The notes under the pieces were generated by a model, which saw only the letters and a program-made list of their open reading frames with translations, had not been told where the DNA came from and did not search any database. A stretch of DNA of 64,000 bases, taken from NCBI GenBank assembly GCA_002356515.1, contig AP017605.1, forward strand, positions 5,751,020-5,815,019. Direction: 5' to 3'. The first letter of the stretch is position 1, and each line of letters begins with the position of its first letter. This DNA is from Mesorhizobium loti (GTDB lineage: Bacteria > Pseudomonadota > Alphaproteobacteria > Rhizobiales > Rhizobiaceae). The position numbers and the translations under genes were made by a program. Below are positions 1,884 through 29,179 of the stretch, one piece after another.

Positions 1884-1886
1884 GAC

Positions 1887-4166: not shown

Positions 4167-4177
4167 GGAGCCAGACA

Positions 4178-4909: not shown

Positions 4910-4919
4910 GGGGGACGCA

Positions 4920-5069
4920 ATGAGCTATAATTTGATGCGGGAATTCGCGGACAGCTGGGGTCTGCTTGCCATGGCGCTCTTCTACGTCGGCTGCATTGCC
5001 TTTTCCTTGCGTCCCGGCGGCAAAACACAGGCCGATCAAGCCGCCCAGATTCCACTCAAGGACGACTGA
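4920..5069 (+). CDS. ccoQ: Cytochrome cbb3 oxidase small subunit (FixQ/CcoQ)
   Basis: A 49-aa single-span protein (MSYNLMREFADSWGLLAMAL) with one membrane helix and a short polar tail rich in Lys/Asp, matching FixQ in size and position. CcoQ stabilises the CcoNOP complex. ATG 4920 follows GAGGGGGACGCA. An upstream in-frame ATG would run into ccoO and is rejected. ccoP starts two bases after its stop. Confidence 0.93.
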   Translation: MSYNLMREFADSWGLLAMALFYVGCIAFSLRPGGKTQADQAAQIPLKDD

Positions 5070-5935: not shown

Positions 5936-5972
5936 GAACGGAAGCCTATTCTCGGCCCTCCCCGCCAAGCGA

Positions 5973-5998
5973 CGGGGCCCGGCACGAGTCGGGCCCCG
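5973..5998 (+). terminator. Terminator-like hairpin after ccoP
   Basis: A 9-bp perfect stem (CGGGGCCCG / CGGGCCCCG) with an 8-nt loop lies 38 bp after the ccoP stop. No T-tract follows, so it may act as an mRNA-stabilising or weak termination structure separating ccoNOQP from ccoGHIS. Confidence 0.5.
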
Positions 5999-6020
5999 AC
6001 ACCATTCCGGCATGCCGCGA

Positions 6021-6034
6021 TTGACCTGCAGCAA
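6021..6034. promoter_or_regulatory. FNR/FixK-like box upstream of ccoGHIS
   Basis: TTGACCTGCAGCAA matches TTGAY-N4-RTCAA except for one base (G for T in the right half). It is about 100 bp upstream of ccoG, so the assembly operon may have its own oxygen-regulated promoter (inference). Confidence 0.45.
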
Positions 6035-6132
6035 GGCGGCGCGGCCCACACGGCGAAGCGGGCTCACTGCAGACCGGACGTCTGTCGAAGCAGACAAGTC
6101 CGTCGCACAACGATGTCATAGGCCGCGCGCGA

Positions 6133-7704: not shown

Positions 7705-8198
7705 GCACCAATACGCAAAAGACGCGTGAGTTCACCGGCAGGCACATGCTGCTCACCATTCTCGGCTTTTTCGGCGTGATCATCGCGGTCAATCTCACGA
7801 TGGCGACACTCGCCAGCACGAGCTGGACCGGCCTTGTCGTCGAGAACACCTATGTGGCCAGCCAGCAATTCAACCGAAAGGCCGAGGAAGGGCGCGCGCA
7901 GGCGGCACTCGGCTGGACCGGCAAACTGACGATCGCTCGGGGTGAGGTCCGCTACAGCTTGAGCGATACCACCGGCAAGCCGGTCCCGTTGCATGGCGTC
8001 AAGATACTGTTTCGTCATCCCGCCTACGAGGCTGGGGACAAGGCCGTCACTCTCGCCCTCGTCTCGGACCAGGAATTTGCCGCGCAGCACTTGCCAAGGG
8101 ATGGCGTCTGGATCGTCGAAGTCGACGCCGATGCCGGTCTGACAGAGCCCTATCGCGACGTTCGCCGGATCATGATTTCGCAAGGAGCCCTGCAATGA
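7701..8198 (+). CDS. ccoH: cbb3 assembly protein FixH/CcoH
   Basis: A 165-aa protein with a single membrane helix (about residues 15-37, GRHMLLTILGFFGVIIAVNL) and a periplasmic FixH domain containing WTGLVVENTYVASQQFN, a family hallmark. It helps mature and stabilise the cbb3 oxidase. It overlaps ccoG and ccoI by four bases each (ATGA), so the three are translationally coupled. Confidence 0.93.
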   Translation: MSTNTQKTREFTGRHMLLTILGFFGVIIAVNLTMATLASTSWTGLVVENTYVASQQFNRKAEEGRAQAALGWTGKLTIARGEVRYSLSDTTGKPVPLHGVKILFRHPAYEAGDKAVTLALVSDQEFAAQHLPRDGVWIVEVDADAGLTEPYRDVRRIMISQGALQ

Positions 8199-10483
8199 GC
8201 TGTTGTGCACCCAGCGCGGAACTGGCGCTGGATCTGACCAGTACCACATCGGTCCTGCCGTCTAGCCAGGAGATCAGGTTGGCGAGCCGATCGCTTGGCG
8301 ACAATCTTTGGCAGACCGACCTTTCAGTGCCGACGGTTCACTGCGCGGCGTGCATCCAGGCCATCGAGACGGCTCTCGGAAGGCTCGATCGCGTCGAAGG
8401 CGCTCGTGTCAACCTGTCGACGAAACGGGTCGCGATCCGGTGGCGTGGGGACTCTGTGCCTCCGTTTGTCGCCGCGCTGGGACGGCTGGGCTTTCAGGCG
8501 CACCTGTTCGAAGCCGACCCTGATAAGAAGGACAAGACGCTTGCCGAGCTGATCCGCGCGGTCGCGGTCGCCGGGTTCGCCGCCGGCAACATCATGCTTC
8601 TTTCGGTCTCGGTCTGGTCCGGCGCCGAAGGTGCTACCCGCGACCTGTTTCACTGGGTCTCTGCATTGATCGCCATCCCGGCGCTCACCTTTGCCGGCGG
8701 CATCTTCTTCCGCTCGGCCTGGAATGCACTGCGCCACGGCCGCATGAACATGGACGTGCCGATCGCGGTTGGGGTGTCGCTCGCTTATGCCATGAGCCTC
8801 TACGAGACGATCAATCATGGCGATCACGCCTATTTCGACGCGTCCGTATCCCTGCTGTTTTTCCTGTTGATCGGCCGCACCCTGGATCACGTCATGCGCG
8901 AACGGGCACGGACCGCCGTGAAAGGCCTGTCCCAGTTGGCCGCACGTGGCGCCATGGTGCTGCGCGGCGATGGCGCGCGCGACTACCTGCCGGTTGGCGA
9001 GATCGAACCGGGCATGCAACTGCTGGTCGCCGCCGGCGAAAGGGTGCCTGTCGACAGCAGGGTCATTCGCGGCGCGTCGGATCTCGACTGCTCGCTGGTT
9101 TCCGGCGAGAGCACACCGAAAACCGTGGCGTCCGGGGAACAGGTTCAGGCCGGCACGCTCAATCTTACCGGCCCGCTGACCATCGAAGCGACCGCTGCCG
9201 CAAAGGACTCCTTCCTGGCGGAAATGGTTCGGCTGATGGAAGCCGCCGAAGGTGGTCGTGCGCACTATCGGCGGATCGCCGACCGTGTCTCGGCGCTCTA
9301 CGCGCCGGTGGTCCATCTCACCGCCTTCGTGACGTTCCTTGGCTGGATGGCGGTAACCGGCGACTGGCACCGGGCAGTGACGATCGCGATCGCCGTTCTC
9401 ATCATCACATGCCCGTGCGCGCTCGGTCTGGCCGTGCCGATCGTGCAAGTGGTCGCGGCGCGCCGCTTGTTCGAAGCCGGCATGATGGTCAAGGACGGAT
9501 CGGCCATGGAGCGCCTGGCCGCGATAGACGTGGCGGTATTCGACAAGACGGGCACGCTAACGCTCGGTCAGCCCAGGCTGGTCAACGCGTCGACCATCGA
9601 TCCGGCGATGCTGGCGATCGCAGCCGACATGGCGGCGCACTCCCGTCACCCGTTCTCGAAGGCCATCGCCGCATTCGCGGGTTTTGCCGGCCAGCCGAAG
9701 CTGGAAGCCGTCAGCGAGCACCCGGGTCTCGGCATCGAAGCGACGACCGCGGACAGCACCTGGCGTCTTGGCCGGCGCGGCTGGGCCGGATGGAAAGCCC
9801 GGACCGGTGGCGAAGGCAAGTATGGCGGCTATGGCGGGACGGTGCTCTCGAAGAATGGGAGGATCGTCGCCTCCTTCACGTTCGAGGACGCTACGCGCGC
9901 CGACGCCAAGGCGGCGGTCGGGCAATTGAAGAATGCCGGCGTGTCGGTCGAAATGCTGTCCGGGGATATAGCCCATGCCTGCGGCGAGGTTGCCGGGACG
10001 TTGGATATCGAGAGTTTCGTTCCGGCGCTGCTTCCCTCCGGCAAGGTTGAGCGGATCGAGGTGCTGGCCAGGGCGGGCCACAAGGTTCTGATGGTGGGCG
10101 ACGGGCTCAACGACACGCCGGCCCTCGCTGCCGCGCATGTCTCGATCGCGCCGGCAACCGCCGCCGATATTGGCCGCAACGCGGCCGATTTCGTGTTCCT
10201 GCGCGAAAGCCTGCTGGCGGTGCCCCTGGCGCTGGATGTCTCGCGGCAAGCGGGAAGGCTGATCCGGCAGAATATCGCCATTGCGATCGTCTACAACGCT
10301 GTCGCCGTGCCGATTGCCATTCTCGGGCACGTCACGCCGTTGATCGCGGCGATCGCGATGTCGGCCTCATCGCTGCTGGTCATCGGAAACGCGCTGCGCC
10401 TGCAGGGCTTTAGGCTCGCCGAGCTGACGAGGGCTTCTTCGGCAACGCATTCCGGCATTCACCCATCAGCGCGGTCATCATGA
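8195..10483 (+). CDS. ccoI: Copper-exporting P1B-type ATPase for cbb3 assembly (FixI/CcoI)
   Basis: Copper-translocating P-type ATPase of 762 aa that delivers copper for the CcoN active site. An amino-terminal heavy-metal domain has VHCAACIQAIE (Cys50, Cys53). The membrane metal site CPCALGLAVP lies near residue 405, the phosphorylated aspartate in DKTGTLT near 449, and GDGLNDTPAL near 634. The MSCC start adds two further cysteines. It is third in ccoGHIS; its stop overlaps the ccoS start (ATGA). Confidence 0.95.
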   Translation: MSCCAPSAELALDLTSTTSVLPSSQEIRLASRSLGDNLWQTDLSVPTVHCAACIQAIETALGRLDRVEGARVNLSTKRVAIRWRGDSVPPFVAALGRLGFQAHLFEADPDKKDKTLAELIRAVAVAGFAAGNIMLLSVSVWSGAEGATRDLFHWVSALIAIPALTFAGGIFFRSAWNALRHGRMNMDVPIAVGVSLAYAMSLYETINHGDHAYFDASVSLLFFLLIGRTLDHVMRERARTAVKGLSQLAARGAMVLRGDGARDYLPVGEIEPGMQLLVAAGERVPVDSRVIRGASDLDCSLVSGESTPKTVASGEQVQAGTLNLTGPLTIEATAAAKDSFLAEMVRLMEAAEGGRAHYRRIADRVSALYAPVVHLTAFVTFLGWMAVTGDWHRAVTIAIAVLIITCPCALGLAVPIVQVVAARRLFEAGMMVKDGSAMERLAAIDVAVFDKTGTLTLGQPRLVNASTIDPAMLAIAADMAAHSRHPFSKAIAAFAGFAGQPKLEAVSEHPGLGIEATTADSTWRLGRRGWAGWKARTGGEGKYGGYGGTVLSKNGRIVASFTFEDATRADAKAAVGQLKNAGVSVEMLSGDIAHACGEVAGTLDIESFVPALLPSGKVERIEVLARAGHKVLMVGDGLNDTPALAAAHVSIAPATAADIGRNAADFVFLRESLLAVPLALDVSRQAGRLIRQNIAIAIVYNAVAVPIAILGHVTPLIAAIAMSASSLLVIGNALRLQGFRLAELTRASSATHSGIHPSARSS

Positions 10484-10629
10484 CGATACTCGTCTACCTC
10501 ATGCCAGTCGCCCTATTTCTTGGCGCACTGGGGCTGACTGGCTTTCTGTGGGCGTTGAAGAGTGGCCAATATGAGGATCTTGACGGAGCCGCTGAGCGCA
10601 TCCTCCGGGACGACAAGCCGGAACGCTGA
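10480..10629 (+). CDS. ccoS: cbb3 assembly protein FixS/CcoS
   Basis: A 49-aa small membrane protein starting at ATG 10480 inside the last codons of ccoI (ATGA overlap). It begins MTILVYLMPVALFLGALGL, continues with a WALKSGQYEDLDGAAERIL segment and ends DDKPER. The single helix followed by SGQYDDL-type residues is diagnostic for CcoS, which is needed to insert heme/copper into CcoN. Last gene of the operon, followed by a hairpin at 10655-10673. Confidence 0.93.
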   Translation: MTILVYLMPVALFLGALGLTGFLWALKSGQYEDLDGAAERILRDDKPER

Positions 10630-10654
10630 GCCAGACCGCTGTTCCTGACGCTGT

Positions 10655-10673
10655 GCTGACGCCTCCCGTCAGC
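10655..10673 (+). terminator. Hairpin after ccoS
   Basis: A 7-bp perfect stem GCTGACG / CGTCAGC with loop CCTCC begins 26 bp after the ccoS stop. There is no T-tract; likely the end of ccoGHIS and the edge of the conserved cluster. Confidence 0.45.
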
Positions 10674-10854
10674 CGACTCGGAATAACGATTGAAGCTCCA
10701 CAACCAGTTAAGTCGCTTGACGTAGATTTGTGAAAAGCCCCTGTCCCTCGAAGGACTGCGTCGCCGGTTCCGCCCCAACATAGACGCGGCCATTGTCATA
10801 ACGTACGCAAAGCTGATGTTCATGTTCACGATAGGTGCGGACACGGGGTTGCAG

Positions 10855-11353
10855 TTACACTTGTTTGGGTTCAACTGCAGGTTTCGTGCACCCAATTTCG
10901 TCCAGATAATCGGCCCACCACTGCATCATACTGACGCGCTTTTCCCAGTGCTCTGCCCTGGCGTAAGTGCGCCGAACGTCGTTCTTTTCAATATGGGTCA
11001 GCTGTCTCTCTTGCGTCTGGATGCCACTTGCCGCATTCATTCAACAGAGTTGATGCCGTTGCTCGGAAACCGTGAGCCGCTGCTTTTTCTTGCTGTAACC
11101 CATGCGACGCAGGGCGGCGTTAAGTGTATTGTCGGAAATCGGACGAGAACCCGATCGCACACTTGGAAACAGCAGCGCCTCGCCGCCGGAAATGTCTCTG
11201 AGATCGGTCAGGATTTTGATGACCTGCCTCGAAAGTGCAACGCGGTGCGGCCGCCGCATTTTCATGCGTGCTTCCGGGATGGTCCACACCGAACCTTTGA
11301 AGTCGAACTCTTCTTATCCGGCGGCTCGCAACTCGCCGGGGCGGGGAAACAGT
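10855..11353 (-). pseudogene. Decayed duplicate of the P4-type integrase carboxy terminus
   Basis: The reverse strand carries the last third of a tyrosine recombinase closely related to the intact integrase at 17447-18757, for example RSGSRPISDNTLNAALRRMGY and the THIEKNDVRRTYARAEHW segment with the catalytic His and Tyr. Compared with the intact copy there is a 1-base loss near 11090 and a 2-base loss near 11010, each shifting the frame, and everything before the PRPGELR region is missing. It is therefore a non-functional relic, probably of an earlier or tandem insertion at the same locus. It lies directly after the cco cluster. Confidence 0.85.
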
Positions 11354-11371
11354 AGGCGCAGTTATGCGACG

Positions 11372-12559
11372 CTAAGTTTCCGGAAATAGCTTAGGAAACA
11401 GTTCGTCCAACGTGTCGACCGGGAAGCGTAGCGATACCGGTCCTTTCGGGGTATCGGACGCAAGCAGGCCAAGCTCGAGCACCTCGGTAAACACGCGGCG
11501 GGCCGTACGTTCCGGCAAGCCAGCGATACGTGAGGCCTCACCGCGATCGAACTCGCCGCGCAGAAGCGCCTCCTCGAGCAGCCGGAAAGCTTCGGGCTTC
11601 AGGTCGTAGCGTTGAACGAACCGCTGCAGGCGCCGGGCTAGTTGGTTCAAATCGAACAGGCTCGACATGAAACTGACCTGGTCGATGCATACGCGTAGAA
11701 ACCATAAGGTAAAATCCGCCAGCGCCCGCATAGAAAGATTGCCGCGGCCGTCGCGATCGCCTTGGCGTGGCATGTCGGCGTGATCCATCATGCGTTTATA
11801 GTCGCCGCGGCTTTCCAGACCCCGCGCCAGGCCTCGGGAAATCGACCACAGCCCATGCGCGGCGATTCCTGCCTCATGGGCCATGGCGTGACTCATCAAG
11901 CGGCTGACGCGTCCATTGCCGTCTGGGAAGGGATGAATGTAATTGAACCGATGATGCGCGGCCGGAATCGCCAATATCCTAGCCGCTTTGCCCGTACGTT
12001 GGAAGCGGTACCGGCTAGCGAAATGCTCCATGAACGCTTCGACGCGATCGCTTGACGGCGGCTGGTGGCGGCCGACAGTGACATCATGTTCAGGCTGTGA
12101 TCGCCACCGACCCGGAACCATCAAGAATTCTCTGTCTGCGCCGCGAATGCGCAACATCGCCTCATCGGCGTCACGGTAGAATTCCGCATGCAGCCAGCGC
12201 AAAAAATCAAGCGAAGCCGGTTCTGGGAGCTGACCCTCTGCGGCCAGGCGATCGATTTCCCCCTGCAGTCGAACATGGGCCGCGGCTTCCACCTGCAGGT
12301 TGCGTCGTTCCTGGTCTTTGTCGAATTCGCCGGCGAGGGCGCGTTCGATGTCGCGCGGGCGTGTGTTGTGGCCCTCGATCAGGTTGCTGTAATAGGTGTT
12401 CATGATGCGCACGAGATCCGCCAGGTTCGCGGCCGTGCGCGGATGCAGCTTGGCGCCGAGAACCGCCGAGCTTGCTGACAGCTCAGCCAGCGCGTCGGAG
12501 ATAGGCTCCGCAACGTCTTCCAGGCGCGCCGGCTCGATGCGCTGTACGGTCTCTTCCAT
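11372..12559 (-). CDS. Fic-domain protein with inhibitory-helix motif and C-terminal winged helix
   Basis: Fic proteins transfer AMP or other phospho-groups to target proteins. This 395-aa protein has the complete catalytic motif [12 protein letters not shown] (209-220). It also has an upstream SNLIEG (58-63), fitting the (S/T)xxxE(G/N) inhibitory helix of self-restrained class II Fic enzymes. The carboxy third looks like a winged helix ([20 protein letters not shown]), so it may bind DNA. The start at 12559 has no ribosome site. A promoter (TTGACA at 12595-12600, TCTAAC at 12571-12576) would give a nearly leaderless message. Repeats overlapping this promoter suggest autoregulation (inference). 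The target is unknown. Confidence 0.9.
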
Positions 12560-12560
12560 G

Positions 12561-12796
12561 ATTGGCCGATGTTAGATCGCGCTAAGTACGTATATGTCAA
12601 CAGAAATTTTAGCTGAGCGCCCATAACTGGCCGATCATTTGGCCGATGTTAGGCGCTACCTCGGCTTCACCGAGACGGTTGATCGACGACGCCAATGCCG
12701 ATGCCGATGATGGCCGATATTCGCTATGCTTAGCGCATTGATAGCATGTACAAATTTGCGATCGGTAGGTCGATTTGGCCGATCGCTTGGCCGAAC
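12561..12796. repeat. Cluster of six TTGGCCGAT-like repeats upstream of the Fic gene
   Basis: Copies of (T/C/A)TGGCCGA(T/A) occur near 12562, 12628, 12639, 12710, 12775 and 12787. Two share the longer form TTGGCCGATGTTAG followed by GCGCTA. The first overlaps the predicted -10/start region of the Fic promoter. The rest of the 12560-13073 gap holds no convincing gene. The repeats look like operators or an iteron-like protein-binding array (inference). Confidence 0.55.
12571..12600 (-). promoter_or_regulatory. Predicted sigma-70-type promoter of the Fic gene
   Basis: On the minus strand TTGACA (12600-12595) is followed after 18 bp by TCTAAC (12576-12571). Transcription would begin only about 5 nt before the ATG at 12559, matching the lack of a ribosome site. 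Confidence 0.4.
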
Positions 12797-13073
12797 TTCG
12801 TCGGTCGCGCTGACTAGAATATACGACCAGGAAAATACAGGCGACTCCAAATGATTTCTCCAGAGATTGCGGAAGCACGCGACGCTGCGACCCGGCTGCG
12901 CGAGGACTCGAACGAGGCAGCCCAATACCGCTGAGCTCTGCGAGAGCGTGTGGAAGCCCGATGCGGGCCGCCAGGTTCTCCCGTTTGCGTTTTCTGCATG
13001 AGTTTTAAAAAACAAGTATGGAATTACCACGGTTCCGGTCGTCGGTTACGTCAATGACGGAACCGACGACATA

Positions 13074-13415
13074 ATGATTTCCCACGCCTGGCTGGAGTAT
13101 GACGGTAAGAAGACCGATGTTAGCCTCGCCGTGACAGCACATCCAGATGTCTCGCCTGCAGGACAACTCATAATCCTCGATCGGGTGGTTAAGCGTGGAC
13201 ACGAGTATTCCTACCATCGCGAGATGACGACGGCTTGGCTGCTTCAGCTGCAGAAAATGCGTATGGTTGGCCAGCAAGCGCTCGTTGATCATAAGATGGA
13301 AGAGCACTCGCTCATGACAGCCCGGAGCACGCAAACTGACTTGATCCGCTCCTACCTTGACGGCGAGCCGAACGGTTTGACCTATGAGAAGATCGTTGCG
13401 TTTATCGAGTCCTGA
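13074..13415 (+). CDS. Small protein with HAW-x-E...D motif, possibly truncated transglutaminase/cysteine-protease-like
   Basis: A 113-aa reading frame beginning MISHAWLEYDGKKTDVSLAV. The H-A-W-x-E with a following Asp resembles the His/Asp half of transglutaminase-like folds, but no catalytic Cys is present. The frame is open back to 13002 with similar codon use (KYGITTVPVVGYVNDGTDD) but no standard start. An ATG at 12998 reads into it only if one base is skipped in the run of six A's at 13006-13011. It may be a truncated gene, a slippage-dependent gene or a sequencing indel. Function unknown; the antisense frame over this stretch looks non-coding. Confidence 0.4.
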   Translation: MISHAWLEYDGKKTDVSLAVTAHPDVSPAGQLIILDRVVKRGHEYSYHREMTTAWLLQLQKMRMVGQQALVDHKMEEHSLMTARSTQTDLIRSYLDGEPNGLTYEKIVAFIES

Positions 13416-13580
13416 TCGGTTACCGATAAGGCCAAACTTCCATCTGTGAATCTTTTTACAGGGCGCCGCCTGGTTGTGCGTTCTATAAGCGATTGAGGCA
13501 TATGCCGCGACAGTCTTGCTGCGCCATGTCATGGCACAGCAAGAACTGTGAAAAAGTAGGATAGTTCATAGCCCCGGCGC

Positions 13581-14288
13581 TTACTTCGTCACATCAGCTT
13601 GCCACCAAGGAGATGCGTGAATGTCGAGGGGAGATGCCAAGCAGCGCGGGCAGTGAAAAAGGTTCGCGGCAACTTCAACCCCGGTAGACGACTGGTCGCA
13701 ATGCAAGCAAAACCAGATGTCACTTACCTCATGACCTAGGGGGTGTTCGGCACGGCCGGTGCTGTCTGGCACCGTTGAGCGACGAGGCCAGTCTGACGCG
13801 ATTCGCGCGTGAACCAGCTTGCGCCAACCCGAAGCTATTTCGAGCGCGGCATTTCGGAAGTTTGTGTGGTCAATCGGGTTCGCTTTGAGCCTGCGATCTG
13901 TTACTCGAAAACGAGCAGGAGCTAAGGGGGCCTCGGGTAAGGTCACCTCCCAACCTCGTCCCCACATGCGAACATCGTCCGAATGCGTGCTCACCCGATA
14001 GCTGTGCCCTTGCAGTTCGCCCTCGAACTTGTCAGGGCCAAGCACGCTCCAGGGATCAGTATCTATGGAAATCAGCGGATTTTCGGCAAGCACCAGCGCC
14101 CGAGCGATAGCCAGATCCGCCTCAGACGGACGCCATCCCTTCCTTTCTGCATTGGTCAGCGCGTTCCAATGCGGGTAGCCCAATGCCTGCGCAATCACTT
14201 CCAACGCGCCTACGTGTTTTATTCGCCTGGCGCGGGCAATGTTTCGCGCAGCGGTCTTCAGTTCTTTCAGTTGATCGCTATTGCTCAT
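13581..14288 (-). CDS. Conserved hypothetical protein with N-terminal helical domain and C-terminal zinc ribbon
   Basis: A 235-aa protein. The amino terminus (RARRIKHVGALEVIAQALGY followed by PHWNALTNAERKGW) matches a short helical module found at the start of many uncharacterised proteobacterial proteins, some with glyoxalase-like domains. The carboxy end has CLHC and CPRC pairs 14 residues apart, a likely zinc ribbon. The centre is of unknown fold. ATG 14288 follows AGGAATGG. It lies in the tRNA-Phe island between a possible gene fragment and the NdpA/RelA pair, so it is accessory; no function can be assigned. Confidence 0.6.
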   Translation of the reverse strand: MSNSDQLKELKTAARNIARARRIKHVGALEVIAQALGYPHWNALTNAERKGWRPSEADLAIARALVLAENPLISIDTDPWSVLGPDKFEGELQGHSYRVSTHSDDVRMWGRGWEVTLPEAPLAPARFRVTDRRLKANPIDHTNFRNAALEIASGWRKLVHARIASDWPRRSTVPDSTGRAEHPLGHEVSDIWFCLHCDQSSTGVEVAANLFHCPRCLASPLDIHASPWWQADVTK

Positions 14289-14712
14289 GATCCATTCCTA
14301 TCGTGGTAACGGATCCACCATGTGCCCACTGCTGACAAACCCGTCCCAGGAGGGAATGGTTGGTTTAATCTCAGCGACAGCGCACTGCGAGGCTTTGCAT
14401 GGTGGGCACACTGGCCTGTGCGGGAGGCCATCACCAAATTGCCTTCAGCCACAAAAAACGTCAAGTCATTTACCGAGACTTGGAACGGTTGCCGCCGAAT
14501 GAGTCAGGGCTGCCTCGCGTCACATACTCGGCATAGCGTCAATCGTTCAATGCCTCGCAAGCAGGCGTTCGGGGCAACGGCAGTCGAACTGTGACAGACG
14601 AGGGTGGTCACCGAATCTTAGACGAATGAGATGGCCGTTCGATCGGCGACCATGGAGACTTCAAGCGTCCCGAGACCGCTCTTCTCCTGCCTCATGTTAT
14701 GATCCCTTGAAA

Positions 14713-14745
14713 CGAAGGGGCGGCCGTGTAGCGGCCGCCCCTTCG
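14713..14745. terminator. Strong 14-bp perfect hairpin
   Basis: CGAAGGGGCGGCCG (14713-14726) and its exact complement (14732-14745) enclose a 5-nt loop, TGTAG. It lies in the 585-bp gap 14289-14873, in which I see no convincing gene. It could be a bidirectional terminator isolating the NdpA/RelA pair, or a remnant palindromic repeat. Confidence 0.5.
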
Positions 14746-14833
14746 CACCCCTGCCTAAGATTCCTCCCGCACTGTTCCTATGTCGGCGGCCTTGTGTTCT
14801 TGTTTTGTTCTGATATCCTTCCTTAACCCGCTC

Positions 14834-14846
14834 AGAATAATATTCT
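14834..14846. promoter_or_regulatory. AT-rich palindrome in the promoter region of the NdpA/RelA pair
   Basis: AGAATAATATTCT is a 13-bp near-perfect palindrome 28 bp upstream of the TTG start at 14874. It contains TAATAT, a possible -10, and is followed by AATATTTTCG. The AT richness is unlike the surrounding DNA. Operator or promoter role is inferred. Confidence 0.35.
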
Positions 14847-14873
14847 TCAATATTTTCGAAGGGGGATCGAGTT

Positions 14874-15956
14874 TTGCTTGTAGAGAATCTTTCTATCGGC
14901 CGAGTCGTTATGCATGAGGTATTCCAGAGGAAAGACGGGCCCAATGTAGTGCCGCCATCCTACGGGAAGGATCTCGAAATACTGGATGCCAAGGCTCTCA
15001 GTCATTTTGGGATGCGTATCACCGACGCGCTCTCCGCACAGTCCAAGAGCATAGAGATGCAGATAGTGAAGACCAATGACGCGAGCGTGGTTGGGACTGC
15101 TCGACGTCTTGTTCTCGCAACCGACACCGATTTCCCTAGCATCTCCAATCACATGGCCGATGCCCTCGCTGACGCACAGAAATCACGAGGGATTCCCGGT
15201 GGAATGCTTCTAGTCTTCGATGGGAAAGTCGGTGGCGACGGAAAGCCCTTCTTAGGGGTGATTAAAGCGGAGATGCAGTCCGGCTTTCAACGCCGACTGG
15301 CTGCGGCAAAAGTTGTGACCGAATTCCTCGAGAACATCTTCCTGACGCCAGCCACGAGACTTTACAAGCTTGCTCTGTTCATCTCTGAAGATGCCGCTGT
15401 CACGGCGAGCACAAATTGGCGATGCTTCGTATTTGATAGCAATATCACCGCCGCCCGCCGAGAGAACGCGGCCGTATATTTCTACGACGGCTTTCTTGGC
15501 TGCGCCTTTCCTGAGAGCGGGAAATATGAAACCGCGAAGTTCTTCGACCTCACGAAGGAATTCGTTCGCACCTCGGTAAATGAGCGAGATCTCCGAAGGG
15601 ACCTGGGCGACGCGCTGTTCGCCTTCGTCAAGGTAGATCAGGCACCCACGTTCACCTCGCAACAGTTCGGCGACACGTATCTGCCACCCGAATTGCGTGA
15701 CCCGTTTAACAAGTTCCTCGAAGCCAAGAAATTCCCGACCAATAGAGCTGTGGTTCGGGACATCAGCGAGATGGGTGGAAGGTTGCGGCGCCGGAAGTAC
15801 AAGTTCGGTCCAGACATCGAGTTCTCTGCGTCCCCGGACGCGATACGGAATGGCACCGTGACAATCGAGGATGTGCCGGCAGGCGATGTTTCCGAAGGCG
15901 AGGCTGCAAGCTGGACCAGGATCACGGTCCGCAGGCCAGTCACCGAACAGCTATGA
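14874..15956 (+). CDS. Nucleoid-associated protein, NdpA/YejK (NA37) family
   Basis: A 360-aa protein resembling the 37-kDa nucleoid-associated family (YejK/NdpA, PF04245). Family-like parts are the LVENLSIGRVVMHEVF start, the ALADAQKSRGIPGGMLLVFDG stretch and the conserved order of beta-rich and helical blocks. TTG 14874 is supported by GGGGGA seven bases upstream. Housekeeping NdpA binds DNA in the nucleoid. This copy is in an integrase island and overlaps a RelA/SpoT-domain gene by ATGA, so both are made together. That pairing suggests a two-component defence or stress module in which this protein senses or regulates (inference). Confidence 0.75.
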   Translation: MLVENLSIGRVVMHEVFQRKDGPNVVPPSYGKDLEILDAKALSHFGMRITDALSAQSKSIEMQIVKTNDASVVGTARRLVLATDTDFPSISNHMADALADAQKSRGIPGGMLLVFDGKVGGDGKPFLGVIKAEMQSGFQRRLAAAKVVTEFLENIFLTPATRLYKLALFISEDAAVTASTNWRCFVFDSNITAARRENAAVYFYDGFLGCAFPESGKYETAKFFDLTKEFVRTSVNERDLRRDLGDALFAFVKVDQAPTFTSQQFGDTYLPPELRDPFNKFLEAKKFPTNRAVVRDISEMGGRLRRRKYKFGPDIEFSASPDAIRNGTVTIEDVPAGDVSEGEAASWTRITVRRPVTEQL

Positions 15957-16939
15957 CCACCGAGCTCGAGATCCTGCGACGCTGGGAGGCGGAGCAGCAG
16001 TACTACGATGCCTGGGGTAGGTTCGTCATCCACGCGGTCATCGAGGGGCTCTCGACCCAAGTGGAGGCGCCGGACCTGTTCTTGCGCCTTCCGGTTAAGC
16101 AAAGGCTGAAGGAGAGCAAGTCGCTCATCCAAAAGGCACTCTATCGCGGCAAGGGCTACGCAAGCCCGTATGACGACATGGAGGACAAGGTGGGCATCCG
16201 CTTCGTCGTGCTCACATCCGACGAAATACCCGTTGTCGAGAAGGCGATCGCCGAATTCGGCGACAAGTACTGGTTCTGGGAAAAAGCCCGGGACTTCGCC
16301 GAGGAGCGAGCCCGAAAGCCTTGGGAGTTCGGATACCAGTCGGTCCACTACGTGGTTCGGGCAAAGGCAGGGGTCGTATTCGAAGGCGTCCCTATACCGC
16401 TGGACATTCCGTGCGAGATCCAGGTCCGCACGCTGCTGCAGCATGCCTTCAGCGAAGTCACCCACGACACAATCTACAAGCCGAGCGTCAAATCGACGCC
16501 TGAGATGATGCGGGCTGCGGCAAAGGCGATGGCGTTGATCGAAGCGACTGACGACTACTTCCGCCAAGTCGGCAACCTCATCGACGCATCGGTCAAGAGC
16601 GTCAAGGCTCTGATCGACGCCTTGTCCGTGTACTACCGAGACAAGATCGGTGTGGACGCGACTGTCACCACTCTCGACGGTGAGTTGATCGACGCGTACC
16701 TCCCACTGGCCGGCGAGAGCTCAATTGAAGACATCCTCCTTTGGCTGAACACCAAGGATTTCATCATGGAGCGCATCAAGGGCCGGCGAGAGGCCCAGAC
16801 CCTGTTCGCCTTGCCCTCGATTTTGTTGCTCTACTTCGTGGTGGGCAATTTTCCGAGCATCGCCACCTCGCCAGGTTTACTGACCGATGAGGAACTCGGG
16901 CCGATATACTCCGACCTTGGCTTGGCCCTTCCGCAGTAG
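15953..16939 (+). CDS. RelA/SpoT-domain nucleotide pyrophosphokinase
   Basis: A 328-aa protein with the synthetase fold of RelA/SpoT (PF04607), which moves pyrophosphate from ATP to GDP/GTP or, in toxic small alarmone synthetases, to other nucleotides or tRNA. Visible conserved elements: RLKESKSLIQKALYRGKGY (Arg51, Lys53, Ser55), EDKVGIRFVV (Asp78, Gly81, Arg83), YQSVHYVVR (Tyr128, His132) and EIQVRTLLQHAFSEVTHDTI with following YK (Glu155, Arg159, His164, Glu168, His171, Lys176). The catalytic set appears intact. There is no HD hydrolase, TGS or ACT domain. The carboxy half (about 180-328) is unassigned. Coupled by ATGA to the NdpA-like gene. Confidence 0.85.
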   Translation: MTTELEILRRWEAEQQYYDAWGRFVIHAVIEGLSTQVEAPDLFLRLPVKQRLKESKSLIQKALYRGKGYASPYDDMEDKVGIRFVVLTSDEIPVVEKAIAEFGDKYWFWEKARDFAEERARKPWEFGYQSVHYVVRAKAGVVFEGVPIPLDIPCEIQVRTLLQHAFSEVTHDTIYKPSVKSTPEMMRAAAKAMALIEATDDYFRQVGNLIDASVKSVKALIDALSVYYRDKIGVDATVTTLDGELIDAYLPLAGESSIEDILLWLNTKDFIMERIKGRREAQTLFALPSILLLYFVVGNFPSIATSPGLLTDEELGPIYSDLGLALPQ

Positions 16940-17446
16940 GCCACAAAGCAGTCCAAGGCGTCGACGCTCAAGTCAAGAGAGGTTGGCCTTGAGAAAAAAT
17001 CGTCGCTCAGAACGGAACCTGCGCTGGAGCACCGGCTGATCAGTCGCCCATTTCCCGCTGAGAGACGCTCACCGAAGAGTTGTGTCGACAGAAGTTCGCC
17101 AAGCGTGACGTTGACGGGCGGCCACTATCTTGGTTCTCGAATTTGACGGCGAGTAACCACAATGAGGTCGCCTCCAGAACGGCTGCTTATCGCTAATCCT
17201 AGCCGAAGCCCGCCAGGCTGGTAACGGCCCTAAACCAGCCACGTTCGTCACGGGTTAATCGACCCTTCTTGTGGGACGACGAGACACCGCAGAGGGAATA
17301 CTAGTCCTCCTCCTGGTCCTTAGGTTCGCCGGACCACAGGAGAGAATACGAAGGAAATGTGTGGCCAACTTATTGATTTCCTGTGGAAAACGATGACCCT
17401 CCGGCATGCAACATTGGTCGCCCAGTTTCGGTGTTTTCGACGGGGT
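16940..17446. other. Gap without a recognisable gene
   Basis: 507 bp between the RelA/SpoT gene and the integrase stop. No open frame here resembles a known protein and I see no strong hairpin or repeat. It may contain the integrase 3' untranslated region. Confidence 0.4.
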
Positions 17447-18757
17447 TCAGTGTGATTTTCGGAGGTTGGAGGTTCGTCTCGTCGTTTGGCGAACCGTCGC
17501 TGTTGGCTTCCAAACTAGACCCTCGCGAGGATGTATGGACAGCAGGCTTGCCTCGTGTCCCTCGATTGAGATCACCCGCGAGTTTTTGCTCTCGAGTTCA
17601 TCCAGATAATCGGCCCACCATCGCATCATTCTGACGCGCTCTTCCCAGTGCTCTGCCCGGGCGTAGGCGCGCCGAACGTCGTTGTTCTCAATGTGGGCCA
17701 GCTGCCGCTCTACGGCGTCCGGGTGCCACTTGCCGCATTCGTTTAGCAGAGTTGATGCCGTTGCTCGAAAACCGTGCGCGGTAGCTTCTTCCTTGCGGTA
17801 GCCCATACGGCGCAGGGCGGCGTTGAGCGTGTTGTCAGAAATCGGGCGCGAACCCGATCGAACACTAGGAAACAACAGCGATCCACCACCAGAGATTTCT
17901 CTAAGTGAGGTCAGGACGCTGACGGCCTGCGTGGAAAGAGGTACGCGGTGCGGCCGTCGCATCTTCATGCGTCCTTCAGGGATGCTCCACACCGAGCTTT
18001 CGAAATCGAACTCGTCCCATCCGGCCGCGCGCAGCTCGCCGGGGCGGGGAAATAGCAGGGCCATCAGCTTCAGAGCGGCTCGGGTTGTAGGCTGTCCGTC
18101 AAATGCATTAATCGCCCTCAGCAAGCCTCCCAAGGCCTTAGGATCGGTAACCGCGGCACGGGGCGTGACCGTCGGACCGACGAGTGCGCCCCTCAGGGCG
18201 ATCGTCGGATCTACATCGGCGCGTGCGGTTGCGATTGCATATCGAAACACGCTGCCGATGGTGGAGCGCATTCGCCTGGCCGACTCGTATCGACCACGAA
18301 CCTCCACGCTGCGGAGAGCGGCAAGAATTGTAGCCGGATCGATCTCCCGAACGCTTTTGTCCCCAAACGTTGGATAGGCAAAGTCGAGCAGCCATTTGAC
18401 CTTGGTGATGGTCCGGTCGGCACGTCCCTCCTTCTTCAGCTTGTCGACATAGTCCTCCGCGATTGAGCGAAAGGTGTCCTCCGCCGAAGCCTTTTGCGAC
18501 TTACGCTCCTGTGCGGGGTCGATGCCACGTAGGAGGAGACGTTTGGCGGTATCGCGCGCCTCGCGTGCCTCAGCGAGGGAGATGAGGGGATAGCTGCCCA
18601 ACGCCAGAAGCTTCTGCTTGCCGCCAAAACGATAGGCGAGGCGCCATAGGCGAGATCCGGTAGGCTGCACCCAAAGCTGGAGCCCGCCACCGTCAGACAA
18701 TTTCACGAGCTTGGAAGCGGGTCGGGCATTACGGCATTTTACGTCGGAAAGAGCCAT
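17447..18757 (-). CDS. P4-family tyrosine-recombinase integrase
   Basis: Site-specific recombinase (436 aa) that inserts islands at tRNA genes. The amino-terminal DUF4102 domain starts MALSDVKCRNARPASK, a SAM-like core follows, then the catalytic domain with Arg in RPGELR, HGFR, and HIENNDVRRAYARAEHW with the nucleophilic Tyr. ATG 18757 is preferred over ATG 18772 because GGAGGT lies seven bases before it. It is transcribed away from tRNA-Phe, 212 bp from its 3' end, the classic arrangement for an element in a tRNA 3' end. A diverged broken copy lies at 10855-11353. Confidence 0.93.
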   Translation of the reverse strand: MALSDVKCRNARPASKLVKLSDGGGLQLWVQPTGSRLWRLAYRFGGKQKLLALGSYPLISLAEAREARDTAKRLLLRGIDPAQERKSQKASAEDTFRSIAEDYVDKLKKEGRADRTITKVKWLLDFAYPTFGDKSVREIDPATILAALRSVEVRGRYESARRMRSTIGSVFRYAIATARADVDPTIALRGALVGPTVTPRAAVTDPKALGGLLRAINAFDGQPTTRAALKLMALLFPRPGELRAAGWDEFDFESSVWSIPEGRMKMRRPHRVPLSTQAVSVLTSLREISGGGSLLFPSVRSGSRPISDNTLNAALRRMGYRKEEATAHGFRATASTLLNECGKWHPDAVERQLAHIENNDVRRAYARAEHWEERVRMMRWWADYLDELESKNSRVISIEGHEASLLSIHPREGLVWKPTATVRQTTRRTSNLRKSH

Positions 18758-18968
18758 TTTCGGGACCTCCATTTGGCTTCATCGATACCATCAGGATCTC
18801 CAATACCAGCGAAAATACCAGCCCCCCGCCTCGTTGGACCAACTGCGCCGAAATTCCACGAAACCCGACCACCCCGCTTTGGGAACCGAAATCAGTAAGT
18901 ATTTCAGCTAGTTGCCGAGACAGAAGCGTAGAGCCTTCGGCGAAAGAGACTGTCGGGAGAAGAGGGGA

Positions 18969-19044
<76 letters not shown>

Positions 19045-19116
19045 CTGTTCCGGCAAACGAAAACGCGTAAACCGGATTTCATCAAGGCGCCGTGGGCGCC
19101 CCTTGAAAGCGCGTGG

Positions 19117-19144
19117 GTTATAGCACGGGAATTTAGCCTGTCCA
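19117..19144 (-). promoter_or_regulatory. Promoter of tRNA-Phe
   Basis: On the minus strand TGGACA (19144-19139) and TATAAC (19122-19117) are 16 bp apart and would start transcription about 65 nt before the tRNA. Nothing else is evident in the gap 19045-19360. Confidence 0.5.
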
Positions 19145-19360
19145 GCGCCCAGCTGTCGATTTCCGGCAGGAAAAGCGAGGCTGTGGAAAGGCCGGCTTTG
19201 TCAGGCGCTTTCATTGCCGGAATGGCGCCCGCAAGCTGGTCCTTTGGTCTCCAGCGTCTTTATCCACGCCACCAAGGCGCGCGGAAATTGGCGCAATCCG
19301 TTCTTAGCCGACGATCGAGATGCCGCAGTGCCAAAAGGCAAGGGCAACGGCCTGTGGCCT

Positions 19361-20236
19361 CTACCTGGCGCCTCCGGCCACACCCTTGCGAAAATCAGAC
19401 GGCGTCATGCCGGCCAGCTTACGGAACGACTTGTTGAAGGCGCTGAGCGAGCCGAAACCGGAATCCATGGCGACGCGCAGCACATTGGCGTCCTGATGCA
19501 TAAGCAGCGCCTGCGCGTAGCTCAGTCGCAACAGGTTGACATATTCATTGAGCGTCATGCCGGTCGATTTCTTGAACAGGCTCATGGCGTATTTGGGATG
19601 GATATCGGCGGCGGCCGCGATGTTCATGCAATCGATGTCGTAGAGGAAATTCTCGGCGATGAAATCGCACATGCGCCCGACATTGCGCGACGATTGCTGG
19701 TCGAAGGCACTGCCGGCTTCCTGTCCGGCCGCCGTTTCGGGCACCAGCCGGTAAGGCTCGAACCGCACCCGCTCCAGCCGCAGCAGAAGCTCGTTGACGG
19801 CGTGCTCGGCCTTGGCCGGATCGCCCGAGCGGGCGTAGCGGTTCCAGCGGGCGAAATTATCGTTGTCGGATTGATCGGTGGCGGCGGTCACCAGCGTCGC
19901 GCCCGTCATCAGCCGGTGGCGCACATCCGCCGGCAGATGCAGCCGGAAGAAATGCACCAGGGGCAGATGCGCGCCGGCATAGATGGCGTCGTCGCTGAGA
20001 TCGTCCATCTGGTGCGGCAGACCGCCCCAGAAGAAGCACATCTCGCCGGCCGAAAGCGAGATTTCGTGCTCGTTCATGCGGTAGTGCACGCTGCCGCGCA
20101 CGATGAAATTCACCTCCACCTGGGCATGCCAATGCGGCTTCAGCATCACCAGCGGAGCGGTGTGAAACATCTGCAGGAGCAGCGGGAGGCCTTCGACGCT
20201 GCTGGCGCCCGGCTGGTAAAACGGCCGTTCGGGCAT
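19361..20236 (-). CDS. AraC-family transcriptional regulator of the first sugar cluster
   Basis: A 291-aa regulator with an amino-terminal cupin-like effector domain (PHWHAQVEVNFIVRGSVHY) and a carboxy-terminal double helix-turn-helix: IAAAADIHPKYAMSLFKKST, then VAMDSGFGSLSAFNKSFRKL followed by AGMTPSDFR. ATG 20236 follows GGCGGAAAG; an upstream ATG at 20293 lacks a ribosome site. It is divergent from the sugar-binding protein gene 104 bp away, so it probably senses the sugar and activates that operon (inference). Confidence 0.88.
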   Translation of the reverse strand: MPERPFYQPGASSVEGLPLLLQMFHTAPLVMLKPHWHAQVEVNFIVRGSVHYRMNEHEISLSAGEMCFFWGGLPHQMDDLSDDAIYAGAHLPLVHFFRLHLPADVRHRLMTGATLVTAATDQSDNDNFARWNRYARSGDPAKAEHAVNELLLRLERVRFEPYRLVPETAAGQEAGSAFDQQSSRNVGRMCDFIAENFLYDIDCMNIAAAADIHPKYAMSLFKKSTGMTLNEYVNLLRLSYAQALLMHQDANVLRVAMDSGFGSLSAFNKSFRKLAGMTPSDFRKGVAGGAR

Positions 20237-20340
20237 CTTACTTTCCGCCAATTTCGTATTCCCTTTGTCGGCGACAAGCCTTCCGCGCTGCATAGTCTAG
20301 CCACGCTCGCAGAGAGAGCAAATGAAATGGGAGGATTTCA

Positions 20341-21612
20341 ATGCGCATCACACTGACCTGCGCCGCGCTCGCGCTTGCCCTGGGCTCAGCCCCGGCCTTT
20401 GCGCAGTCCGGCGAAATCACCATCTGGAGCTGGAATGTCGCCGCTTCGTCGCTGAAGGCAACGGTGGCCGGCTTCAACAAGCTGCATCCCGACATCAAGG
20501 TCACCGTCCAGGATCTCGGCAACCAGCCGACCTACGACAAGTCGATCGCCGGATGTGCCGCCGGCGGCGTCGGCCTGCCCGACATCGTCACCATCGAGAA
20601 TGGCGAGGCGGAGAATTACTGGAGCCAGTTCCCCGACTGCTTCGTCGACCTGCACACGTTGGGCTACACGGCGGAAGACCAGAAGAAATTCCCCGATTTC
20701 AAACGCACCGAGCTCGAGGTCGGCGACAAGGCCTATGCCATGCCGTGGGATTCCGGCCCGGTCGCCGCCTTCTATCGCCGCGACTTCTACGAGAAGGCCG
20801 GTGTCGACCCGGCGTCGATCAAGACCTGGGACGATTTCATCGCCGCCGGCAAGAAGATCCAGGCCGCCAATCCGGGCGTCTCGATGACCAACGCGGATTT
20901 CAACGGCGACAGCGAATTCTTCCGCATGATCTCCAACGAACAGGGCTGCGCCTATTTCTCCGAGGACGGCCAGTCGATCACGGTCAACCAGCCCAAATGC
21001 GTCGACGCCATGATCAAGGTCAAGGAGATGAAGGACGCCGGCATCGTCTCGTCCGCCGACTGGGGCACCAAGATCACCAACAACACGGCCGGCACTGTCG
21101 CCACCCAAATCTATGGCGGCTGGTATGAAGGCACCATCCGCACCGAATCGGCCGGTGAAAACGGCAAATGGGGCGTCTATCTGATGCCGAGCCTCACCGC
21201 TGACGGCCCGCGTGCTGCCAATCTCGGCGGGTCGTCGCTGGCCATCACTTCGGCCTCGAAGAACAAGGAAGCGGCCTACGAGTACCTGAAATATACGCTC
21301 GGAACCAATGAAGGCCAGATCACCATGCTGAAGGAGTTTGGCCTCGTCCCCTCGCTGGTCTCGGCGCTGAACGATCCCTACGTGAGCCAAGGCCTGCCCT
21401 ATTGGGGTGGCCAGGCGGTGTGGAAGGATATTCTGGGCACCTTGCCCAAGGTCGTCCCCAGCCGCGGCACGCAGTTCCAGAGCGACGCCGAAATCATCGT
21501 TCGCGCTGTGCAGACCAAATATCTGGGCGGCGGCTATCCCGATGCCAAGGCAGCGCTCGACGACGCCGCAAAACAGATCGCCGCGGCGACCGGATTGCCC
21601 GTCAAATCATAA
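20341..21612 (+). CDS. Sugar ABC transporter substrate-binding protein (CUT1 type)
   Basis: Periplasmic binding protein of 423 aa. A Sec signal peptide (MRITLTCAALALALGSAPAF) is probably cleaved after AFA before QSGEITIWSW. The ITIWSWN start, the DIVTIENGEAENYW segment and FNKLHPDIKVTV are typical of family 1 sugar-binding proteins (PF13416/PF01547). ATG 20341 follows GGGAGG. First gene of an operon with two permeases, an ATPase and a fused oxidoreductase. The substrate cannot be told from sequence. Confidence 0.93.
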   Translation: MRITLTCAALALALGSAPAFAQSGEITIWSWNVAASSLKATVAGFNKLHPDIKVTVQDLGNQPTYDKSIAGCAAGGVGLPDIVTIENGEAENYWSQFPDCFVDLHTLGYTAEDQKKFPDFKRTELEVGDKAYAMPWDSGPVAAFYRRDFYEKAGVDPASIKTWDDFIAAGKKIQAANPGVSMTNADFNGDSEFFRMISNEQGCAYFSEDGQSITVNQPKCVDAMIKVKEMKDAGIVSSADWGTKITNNTAGTVATQIYGGWYEGTIRTESAGENGKWGVYLMPSLTADGPRAANLGGSSLAITSASKNKEAAYEYLKYTLGTNEGQITMLKEFGLVPSLVSALNDPYVSQGLPYWGGQAVWKDILGTLPKVVPSRGTQFQSDAEIIVRAVQTKYLGGGYPDAKAALDDAAKQIAAATGLPVKS

Positions 21613-21625
21613 CCTCCCAGGGACG

Positions 21626-21656
21626 GGGTCCGGGACGGCTCGTGCCGCCCGGACCC
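21626..21656 (+). terminator. Intercistronic hairpin after the sugar-binding protein gene
   Basis: Stem GGGTCCGGG / CCCGGACCC continues after a bulged A into CGGC / GCCG with loop TCGT, 13 bp in all. It lies 14 nt after the stop codon and 51 bp before the first permease. Such structures usually protect the abundant binding-protein message and lower expression of downstream genes. Confidence 0.6.
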
Positions 21657-21706
21657 TGCGCCTGCGAGCTTGTCTGAAACATCGGATATGAAGGAGGAGG
21701 AGGAAG

Positions 21707-22567
21707 ATGCGCAACCGCAACGCCACGGCCTATCGTTTCCTCGCCCCCTATCTGCTGATCTTTTCCGTCTTCTGGGTGTGGCCGATCATCTCTTCGTTCA
21801 TAATCTCGTTCCAGGCGACACGCACCGTGCCCTGGCGCTTCGCGCCCGGCTTCAACTGGGGCCGGCTGATCGGCGATCCGGCCTTTTTCAATGCGCTGAA
21901 GAACACGCTGCTCATCCTGGTCATCCAGGTGCCGGTGATGATCGCGCTCGCCATGGTGATGGCGGTGCTTTTGAATTCGCCGCTGCTGAAGGCGAGGGGT
22001 CTCTACCGCTTCGCCTTCTTCGCTCCGGTGGTGGTCGGCGAGGTCGCCTATTCGGCGGTGTTCCGGCTGATGTTCAGCCTCGATTTCGGCATCGTCAACA
22101 AGCTCCTGAACAGCGTCGGGCTGCCCAAGATCGACTGGTTCTCCAATGTCACGCCGGCCATGGCGCTGATCATGATCGCGGTCACCTGGCGCTGGGCCGG
22201 CTACAACGCCATCATCCTTCTGGCCGGCATGCAGTCCATCCCCGAGGATGTCTACGAGGCGGCGACGCTCGACCGCGTCAGCAAGCTCAAGCAGTTCTTC
22301 TACATCACTCTGCCGCTGTTGAAGCCGGTTATCGTCTTCTGCCTGGTGCTGTCGATCATCGGCACCATGCAGCTGTTCACCGAGCCCTTCCTGATCACCG
22401 AGCGCGGCGGGCCGGGTGGCGGCACCGAGACACTCGGCCTGCTGCTCTATCGCCAGGGGTTCCGGTCGCTCAATTTCGGCTATGCCTCTGCCGTTGCCTA
22501 CACCATGGCGGCGCTGGCGATCGCGATCACGCTGGTGGAGCTGTGGCTGACGAGGGAAAAGCAATGA
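21707..22567 (+). CDS. Sugar ABC transporter permease 1 (MalF-like)
   Basis: Inner-membrane permease of 286 aa with six predicted spans. The EAA-type loop near residue 190 reads [20 protein letters not shown], contacting the ATPase. The [20 protein letters not shown] stretch near the end is typical of CUT1 MalF-like permeases. ATG 21707 follows GGAGGAGGAAG. It overlaps the second permease by ATGA. Confidence 0.93.
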
Positions 22568-23400
22568 GTTCGCTCTCTTCCGCCCGCCTGCGGCGCAGCA
22601 TCGCATTGCATCTTTTCCTCACCCCGCTGGCACTGATCTGGCTGTTTCCGCTGTGGATGATGGTGGTGTTCTCGACGATGCCCGACAACGGCATTTTCAG
22701 CCCCGGTATCGAGCTCCTGCCGCACGGCAATTTCGTCGACAATTTCAACAATCTGCAGCGCGACACCAACTTCGTCGGCGCCATCGGCATCTCCGTCTCG
22801 GTGGCGGTGACCTACACCATCCTGTCGGTGCTGTTGACGTCGATGGCCGGCTGGGCGCTGGCCCGCTACCAGTTCTTCGGCAAGGGGGTGGTCGTCGGCA
22901 TCATCTTCGGCACCATCACGCTGCCCTATGCGGTGGTGCTGATCCCGCAATTCATCATGGTGGCGCGCGACTTCCAGCTCGCCAACACCTGGGTGGCGCT
23001 GATCGTGCCGCCGCTGTTCAATTCGCTCGGCGTGCTGTTCATGCGCCAGAGTTTTTCGATGATGCCGGACGATCTGTTCGATGCCGCCCGCGTCGAAGGC
23101 GTGAAGGAATGGCGCATCTTCCTCTTCGTCGCGCTGCCGCTGGCGCGGCCGATGCTGGCCGCGCTCGCCATCATCCTGTTCCTGGCTTCCTGGAACAATT
23201 ACCTCTGGCCGCTTTTGATCAACAGCCAGCCTGGTTCGATGACGGCGCCGGTGGCGCTCGGCACGCTGATCGGGCTCACCAAAGTGTCGTGGGGCGGCAT
23301 CATGGCGGGCGCGGTCATGCTGACCGTGCCGATGCTCATCGTCTTCGTGCTCCTGCAGCGCCATTTCATCGCCGGCATCGCCGCCGGCGCAGTCAAGTAA
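22564..23400 (+). CDS. Sugar ABC transporter permease 2 (MalG-like)
   Basis: Partner inner-membrane permease (278 aa, six spans). The EAA loop reads [20 protein letters not shown], followed by [13 protein letters not shown], typical of MalG-like CUT1 subunits. The ATG at 22564 is inside the previous gene's stop (ATGA), so the two are coupled. The ATPase gene follows after 8 bp. Confidence 0.93.
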
Positions 23401-23408
23401 GAGGCAGC

Positions 23409-24488
<1,080 letters not shown>

Positions 24489-24523
24489 CCGGCCGCCCCT
24501 TCCAGCTTTCAAGGAGAATGACA

Positions 24524-26551: not shown

Positions 26552-26573
26552 TAGAACAGGCCGCAAAGCGGCG

Positions 26574-27482: not shown

Positions 27483-27498
27483 AAAATTACCCTTGAAA

Positions 27499-29162: not shown

Positions 29163-29179
29163 AATCTCGGGCGCAGCGA

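Follow-up and report, generated by a model that had tools for sequence, protein, structure and literature searches.

Enzymes of the toxSAS type act in toxin-antitoxin (TA) modules and in phage defence, as described in PMC11782079 (in excerpt). Among YejK-type proteins, binding to DNA or the nucleoid is reported for both YejK and StaR; topoisomerase I is activated by the nucleoid protein StaR, and inhibition of gyrase and Topo IV has been reported for YejK (PMC10053502, in excerpt). The yejK gene is listed among the Salmonella SOS genes (PMC8072944, in excerpt). One E. coli defence system validated by experiment (DefensePredictor; PMC13092281, in excerpt) also contains a YejK domain, and SLATT proteins are predicted to be nucleotide-responsive pores (PMC7159879, in excerpt). 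Both halves of the gene pair analysed here belong to known families. Among the matches listed from the open-access literature no description was found of an NA37 + RelA/SpoT operon, of its fixed pairing, of its SOS box or of its SLATT extension, although an earlier mention is possible.

The pair lies in a window of 64,000 nucleotides of Mesorhizobium loti DNA, the whole stretch that was analysed, and comprises an NA37/YejK-like gene followed directly by a small alarmone synthetase gene. The relevant features of the window are:

14796..14810, + strand: LexA/SOS box GTTC-TTGTTTT-GTTC, 78 bp ahead of the NA37 gene
14874..15956, + strand: NA37/YejK (NdpA-like) gene, TTG start, 360 aa, PF04245 match
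15953..15956, + strand: ATGA stop/start overlap of 4 bp, from the ORF ends of the NA37 and synthetase genes
15953..16939, + strand: small alarmone synthetase gene, ATG start, 328 aa, PF04607 match
14786..16961, + strand: stretch in common with Pacificimonas (the pair and ~90 bp including the SOS box), 91% DNA identity
17447..18772, − strand: tyrosine integrase (Pfam matches), context only
18969..19044, − strand: tRNA-Phe (Rfam), context only
11372..12559, − strand: Fic gene, near the pair

The two reading frames share four bases, as a sequence-only reading of this DNA had noted, and the ATGA overlap suggests that the NA37 and synthetase genes are translationally coupled. Both genes show purifying selection in the comparisons made, with dN/dS values of 0.06–0.13 (NdpA against L004 and L005; the synthetase against L004, L005 and L006). 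The same reading had placed the pair in a tRNA-Phe island with a Fic gene nearby. The integrase, the tRNA-Phe and the Fic gene are all present, but the tRNA-Phe has no exact repeat of at least 14 bases elsewhere in the window, so that the island label is weaker and rests on the integrase at the 3′ end of the tRNA together with an integrase remnant at 10897–11356. An Rfam scan of 10400–19300 returned only the tRNA. The remnant, from a second tyrosine integrase, is ~83% identical in DNA to part of the integrase genes of L004 and L057 and lies beside the Fic gene, where the region looks like a series of stacked integrations. A role for the Fic gene as a third component is unsupported, since the stretch shared with Pacificimonas is confined to 14786–16961. 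The Fic protein matches the PADLOC SoFic model (E = 4.8e-24) but falls far under the NCBIfam SoFic cut-off, and a protein encoded at 13581–14288 (− strand) has a sub-threshold N-terminal Glyoxalase_8 match with weak C-terminal DmmA-like and RNHCP matches.

The synthetase (Pfam RelA_SpoT, PF04607, E = 1.7e-13, above the curated cut-off) consists of a SYNTH domain at approximately residues 50–177, a long helix spanning residues 183–232 and a helical C-terminal part at residues 240–328. PF04607 is its only Pfam match, with no HD, TGS or ACT domain up to E = 1, in agreement with the sequence-only reading, and the donor- and acceptor-site residues are intact, as in a small alarmone synthetase (SAS). 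Residues R51, K53, K61, D78, G81, R83, Y128, H132, E155, Q157 and G323 are invariant in 88/88 rows of the alignment, which bears out the proposal that the catalytic residues are kept; S57 is found in 78/88 rows and R65 in 87/88. The rows were picked from 120 listed of 1098 synthetase homologues and 120 listed of 188 NA37 homologues, together with the loci. In an AF2 model of the whole protein (pLDDT 90.5) the C-terminal part is all-helical, and structure comparison with this model places the predicted SYNTH fold closer to RelP/RelQ than to the toxic SAS, with CapRel aligning over model residues 1–201 only. Elsewhere in the window's own genome (8.45 Mb) the RelA/SpoT synthetase domain is matched once more, by a 761-aa frame taken to be the housekeeping long Rel. 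In Clostridium aestuarii (L035, 12799–13374, − strand) a second RelA/SpoT-domain protein, matching the synthetase profile at E = 3e-15, is located ~2 kb from the pair.

The partner matches Pfam NA37 (PF04245) with an E-value of 1.2e-10, above the curated cut-off, and is predicted to adopt the YejK fold, placing it in the NA37/YejK family; it is the one NA37 match in its genome. Of the known antitoxin domains pZFD, Tis1-like and Panacea none was found, NA37 alone exceeding the Pfam cut-off in a database that may lack some of these models. NdpA is split or incomplete in L006, L017 and L030 and so may be dispensable at times. In L006 (8921–9998) and L030 (8936–9986) NA37 takes the form of two overlapping frames, through decay, programmed frameshift or sequencing error.

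A contig search with the synthetase alone located an NA37 gene directly upstream in 36 of 37 genome loci, and at the 37th (L039) the contig starts inside the synthetase. The taxa include Alpha- and Betaproteobacteria, Carnimonas, Clostridium, Sphingobacteriales and Melioribacteraceae, so that the adjacency first seen in the window recurs in distant bacteria. On viral contigs the partner is adjacent in seven of nine loci, which are all those with a full-length synthetase; the other two hold a short part of the synthetase domain only and no partner. The genes meet at −4 bp in 35 of the 42 relatives with a measurable junction, at −1 in five, at 0 in one and at +19 in one; starts were chosen by script near the profile start, and the count excludes L006, which is split, as well as L002 and L003, the window's own copies. 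The synthetase match is shortened in L025, and contig ends truncate L034 and L038. Order-wide, in 397 genomes assumed to be the same for both profiles, the same three genomes match both NA37 and synthetase, with the genes adjacent, and a fourth, weak synthetase-domain match (E = 2.9e-23) occurs in a genome without an NA37 profile match; as at most five first-look candidates per genome were scored, absence in these searches is not absolute. The NA37 and synthetase distance matrices of 31 loci are correlated (r = 0.89, 0/2000 permutations), and shared ancestry alone also raises r. The pairing is thus near-obligate, and the dN/dS values together with the adjacency in 36/37 loci indicate that it is not due to chance.

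The distribution of the pair is patchy. Within the genus it is found in 4 of 146 genomes, the window's own included, and class-wide a PF04245 match was obtained in 1 of 385 genomes, again the window's own, a figure that may miss members because PF04245 scores this clade weakly. The Pacificimonas locus (L006) is 91% identical to the window over 14786–16961 and has no match to the rest of it. We take Pacificimonas to be placed in another order, and this segment, consisting of the pair and ~90 bp of upstream DNA with the SOS box, is likely a transferred unit. Identity to M. plurifarium is 90% over 14790–17230, and M. helmanticense has the stretch 5964–19173 in common at 95%. The M. helmanticense locus then jumps from ~19173 to 36713, the stretch to the right of the tRNA-Phe being a further strain difference. 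The pair is also carried by an Ochrobactrum plasmid and a conjugative Klebsiella plasmid. In E. coli it occurs in islands where an integrase gene adjoins tRNA-Thr (one of them is interrupted), and two of these islands contain a relaxase gene as well. Two Neisseria gonorrhoeae records match both genes without annotated features and with the synthetase in two pieces; these copies may be decayed, although the gene table used is incomplete and lists no pseudogenes. Phage records yielded three partial synthetase matches, none covering more than 80% of the synthetase; the E. coli-type NA37 protein matched none of these records. Targeting of tRNA sites was rejected as a general rule, a tRNA being found within 6 kb in 8 of the 36 loci examined and in 4 of the 20 control regions, and the tRNA-Phe of the window lacking the repeat noted above. 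These sequence comparisons show that the pair moves horizontally.

The DNA alignment of the window with six relatives revealed a conserved upstream block in which the SOS box resides. GTTC-N7-GTTC is the Caulobacter LexA box, with GTTCttgttatGTTC as an example of a Caulobacter SOS box, and GTTC-ttgttat-GTTC precedes two Caulobacter SOS genes (PMC12700426, in excerpt). The promoter region of the window pair contains this motif of the alphaproteobacterial LexA/SOS regulon. Of the 31 loci counted as alphaproteobacterial (window included), 11 have an exact box in the 250 bp upstream, as do two viral loci. Grouping the loci by DNA identity over the pair gave 38 clusters, of which nine had an exact box within 160 bp upstream, compared with 7 of 527 other genes (4/293 neighbours, 3/184 control genes and 0/50 window genes; binomial P ~1.5e-9). 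The spacer sequence and the position of the box differ between clusters, and three box-bearing Bradyrhizobium loci have the repeat on the other strand. In the window's own genome exact boxes are located 110 bp before the longest uvrA frame and, assuming a 1,500-bp flank, ~80 bp before the lexA match; recA has no exact box. No exact GTTCN7GTTC box lies within 160 bp in 29 of the 38 clusters, enterobacterial ones included, and neither gamma-type (E. coli) nor Firmicutes-type LexA boxes were convincing in eight non-alphaproteobacterial loci (L037 has a one-mismatch gamma-type site, as do 9% of random stretches). SOS control would therefore be confined to part of the family, and in the window's host the motif suggests that the pair is under LexA control.

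In Klebsiella and in 3 of 5,426 complete E. coli genomes examined by DNA search, a gene for a SLATT/DUF4231 protein with two transmembrane segments (2TM) precedes the pair. DUF4231 is above the Pfam cut-off in two of three proteins tested; the E. coli SCU-102 protein has sub-threshold SLATT_4 and DUF4231 matches and one membrane segment by a crude hydropathy count, where the others have two predicted. A tblastn search with the enterobacterial SLATT proteins gave no relative at E < 0.1 in the other loci searched, and in the window no frame that reaches 70 aa and has a hydrophobic stretch terminates in the 700 bp before the pair, which thus has no SLATT/2TM gene in front. In M. plurifarium (L005, 1405–1803, + strand) a frame of 132 aa with two hydrophobic stretches stops 46 bp short of the pair; it may encode a membrane partner of an unrelated kind or may be spurious. 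In L017 a 232-aa frame with hydrophobic stretches ends 202 bp upstream. Both frames count against a clean division into two-gene and three-gene forms. DprA and RecQ-family genes lie beside the three-gene form of SCU-102 (L054, 9901–13322), and the integrase/tRNA-Thr island around it also contains a gene of the inovirus Gp2 family.

The surroundings of the pair were compared with PADLOC-DB 2.0.0. The synthetase domain itself matches candidate family PDC-S33 (E = 4.1e-11) over profile positions 64–193 of 349 only, and the NA37 protein has no match. Neighbours were defined, with longest-ORF heuristics and a minimum of 110 aa, as the 296 genes lying no more than 6 kb from 36 loci; PADLOC was run at 1e-20 on 239 of these and on 125 of 196 genes from 20 control regions in four alphaproteobacterial genomes, the window's own among them, a control that represents alphaproteobacteria only. 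Around the window's nearer relatives (L004–L020) three families with one member each were found among 114 proteins (PD_DExK, SoFic and IetA), and the control gave four with one member each among 125 proteins (three RtcR models and mad3), so that matches are no commoner there than in the control. The remaining neighbour batch yielded 121 families among 125 proteins, 25 of them listed. Thirty families came from 86 proteins around 13 further alphaproteobacterial loci, the 25 listed having one member each, with HerA, SIR2, mREase_II and E1-E2 among the labels. For L028, L033, L035–L037 and L040, with 39 proteins, six of 20 proteins scanned singly matched PADLOC, which is not a rate, as those 20 were hand-picked. 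In the Sphingobacteriales locus (L036) 13 bp separate the pair from a preceding type I specificity gene, and the pair ends a type I restriction-modification (RM) operon. There, same-strand genes for a type I methyltransferase, PDC-S02 and type I specificity (1099–4985, + strand) lead straight into the pair. In Novimethylophilus (L028) the pair is adjoined by MzaB and a partial match to MzaC, and a full-length HmaC match lies 2.3 kb from it in Azoarcus (L033). Defence genes (type I RM, Mza, Hma and HerA/SIR2-type) thus adjoin some copies, not most. The interpretation given by the sequence-only reading, a candidate alarmone-based defence system, is partly supported. Mobility, patchiness, the E. 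coli islands, the viral contigs, the kinship with toxSAS and the YejK domain of the validated E. coli system speak for defence; the lack of tRNA enrichment speaks against it, as does the SOS promoter, which suits a checkpoint equally well. On such genomic grounds a role of the pair in phage defence is plausible.

The reading that we tentatively prefer, and to which we give somewhat less than an even chance, takes the pair for a mobile alarmone module that is inducible by SOS in part of its range and whose YejK-like protein ties the synthetase to the state of the DNA. In the window's host LexA would repress the pair, and DNA damage, including that from a phage or an incoming element, would lift this repression. 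The YejK-like protein would associate with DNA or topoisomerase-bound DNA and, at the coupled stoichiometry set by the overlapping frames, would hold or license the synthetase. The latter is expected to move pyrophosphate from ATP to a purine nucleotide, the product most likely being (p)ppGpp or (p)ppApp, and growth would stop. In enterobacteria the same core would be joined to the 2TM SLATT protein, likely a second effector responding to the nucleotide; since SLATT is predicted to be a nucleotide-responsive pore, reading the module in terms of a nucleotide signal would be natural.

Several other readings bear on the same observations. A type II TA system, with the synthetase as toxSAS and the YejK-like protein as antitoxin, acting in abortive infection or in retention of a mobile element, is conceivable but rather unlikely. 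It would fit the bicistronic arrangement with a coupled partner first, the mobile context, the patchy distribution and the reported work of toxSAS enzymes in TA modules and phage defence (PMC11782079, in excerpt), and by our own mapping FaRel2 residues R64, K66, S70, K74, D90 and Y128 correspond to R51, K53, S57, K61, D78 and Y128. The partner, however, is large (360 aa) with a predicted YejK fold and NA37 as its sole domain above the Pfam cut-off, the modelled SYNTH fold is closer to RelP/RelQ than to toxic SAS, and a LexA-repressed promoter would be unusual for a TA system. We consider it unlikely, too, that the pair is an alarmone-based form of immunity. In such a pathway the YejK-fold protein would sense DNA topology altered by phage or damage and turn on the synthetase, and the nucleotide would be the second messenger, directed at the cell itself where there are two genes and at the SLATT pore where there are three; the logic would be CBASS-like, with an alarmone as signal and, in part of the Alphaproteobacteria, an SOS-gated promoter.

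Still more doubtful is a non-toxic stress regulator, in which SOS-induced (p)ppGpp and supercoiling control by NA37 would slow replication and transcription during repair, with no part in defence. The RelP/RelQ-like fold, the SOS box, the modulation of topoisomerases by NA37 proteins (PMC10053502, in excerpt) and the few defence neighbours around L004–L020 are consistent with this, but the pair is rare and mobile, whereas core repair functions are kept vertically; moreover, the genome already has a long Rel (the 761-aa frame), the core is joined to SLATT in enterobacteria, and known defence genes lie beside the pair in other lineages. Split or incomplete NdpA in some relatives could point to an inert remnant, or the adjacency could be accidental, but this is improbable to the point of being negligible, being ruled out by the 36/37 adjacency and the order-wide co-occurrence, with purifying selection and the invariant active site also against it. 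Were the mobile, DNA-coupled alarmone module to be confirmed, it would link the SOS response, DNA topology and nucleoid proteins, and alarmone signalling, three processes mostly studied apart, in one small transferable operon. An alarmone synthetase would then be turned on by DNA damage instead of by starvation or a phage protein, and what YejK-family proteins sense would become testable through a simple enzymatic read-out.

Compared with known systems, the window pair resembles each in part. Its partner is like YejK and StaR in its above-threshold Pfam NA37 match and predicted YejK fold; those proteins were studied as chromosomal nucleoid proteins, whereas the partner is tied to a synthetase and horizontally mobile. 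The DefensePredictor system implicates the YejK domain in anti-phage defence, a likeness through that domain, its partners being unnamed in the available text (PMC13092281), and the three-gene form of the pair is present in 3 of 5,426 E. coli genomes. SLATT-coupled nucleotide-signalling conflict systems are matched by the enterobacterial copies, with a 2TM SLATT/DUF4231 gene in front, but differ from the window and the other loci searched, which have no SLATT relative, and the alarmone synthetase is only a presumed signal source. The toxSAS (FaRel2/ATfaRel2, FaRel and CapRel) are similar in their single SYNTH domain and mobility, and FaRel2-type modules also in bicistronic order; CapRel has a C-terminal pseudo-zinc-finger antitoxin domain fused to SYNTH; the C-terminal part of the window synthetase is all-helical in the model. 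The RelP/RelQ SAS share 16–22% identity with the window synthetase, which, unlike them, has an extra conserved helical C-terminal part and a fixed NA37 partner, and is mobile where RelP and RelQ are core.
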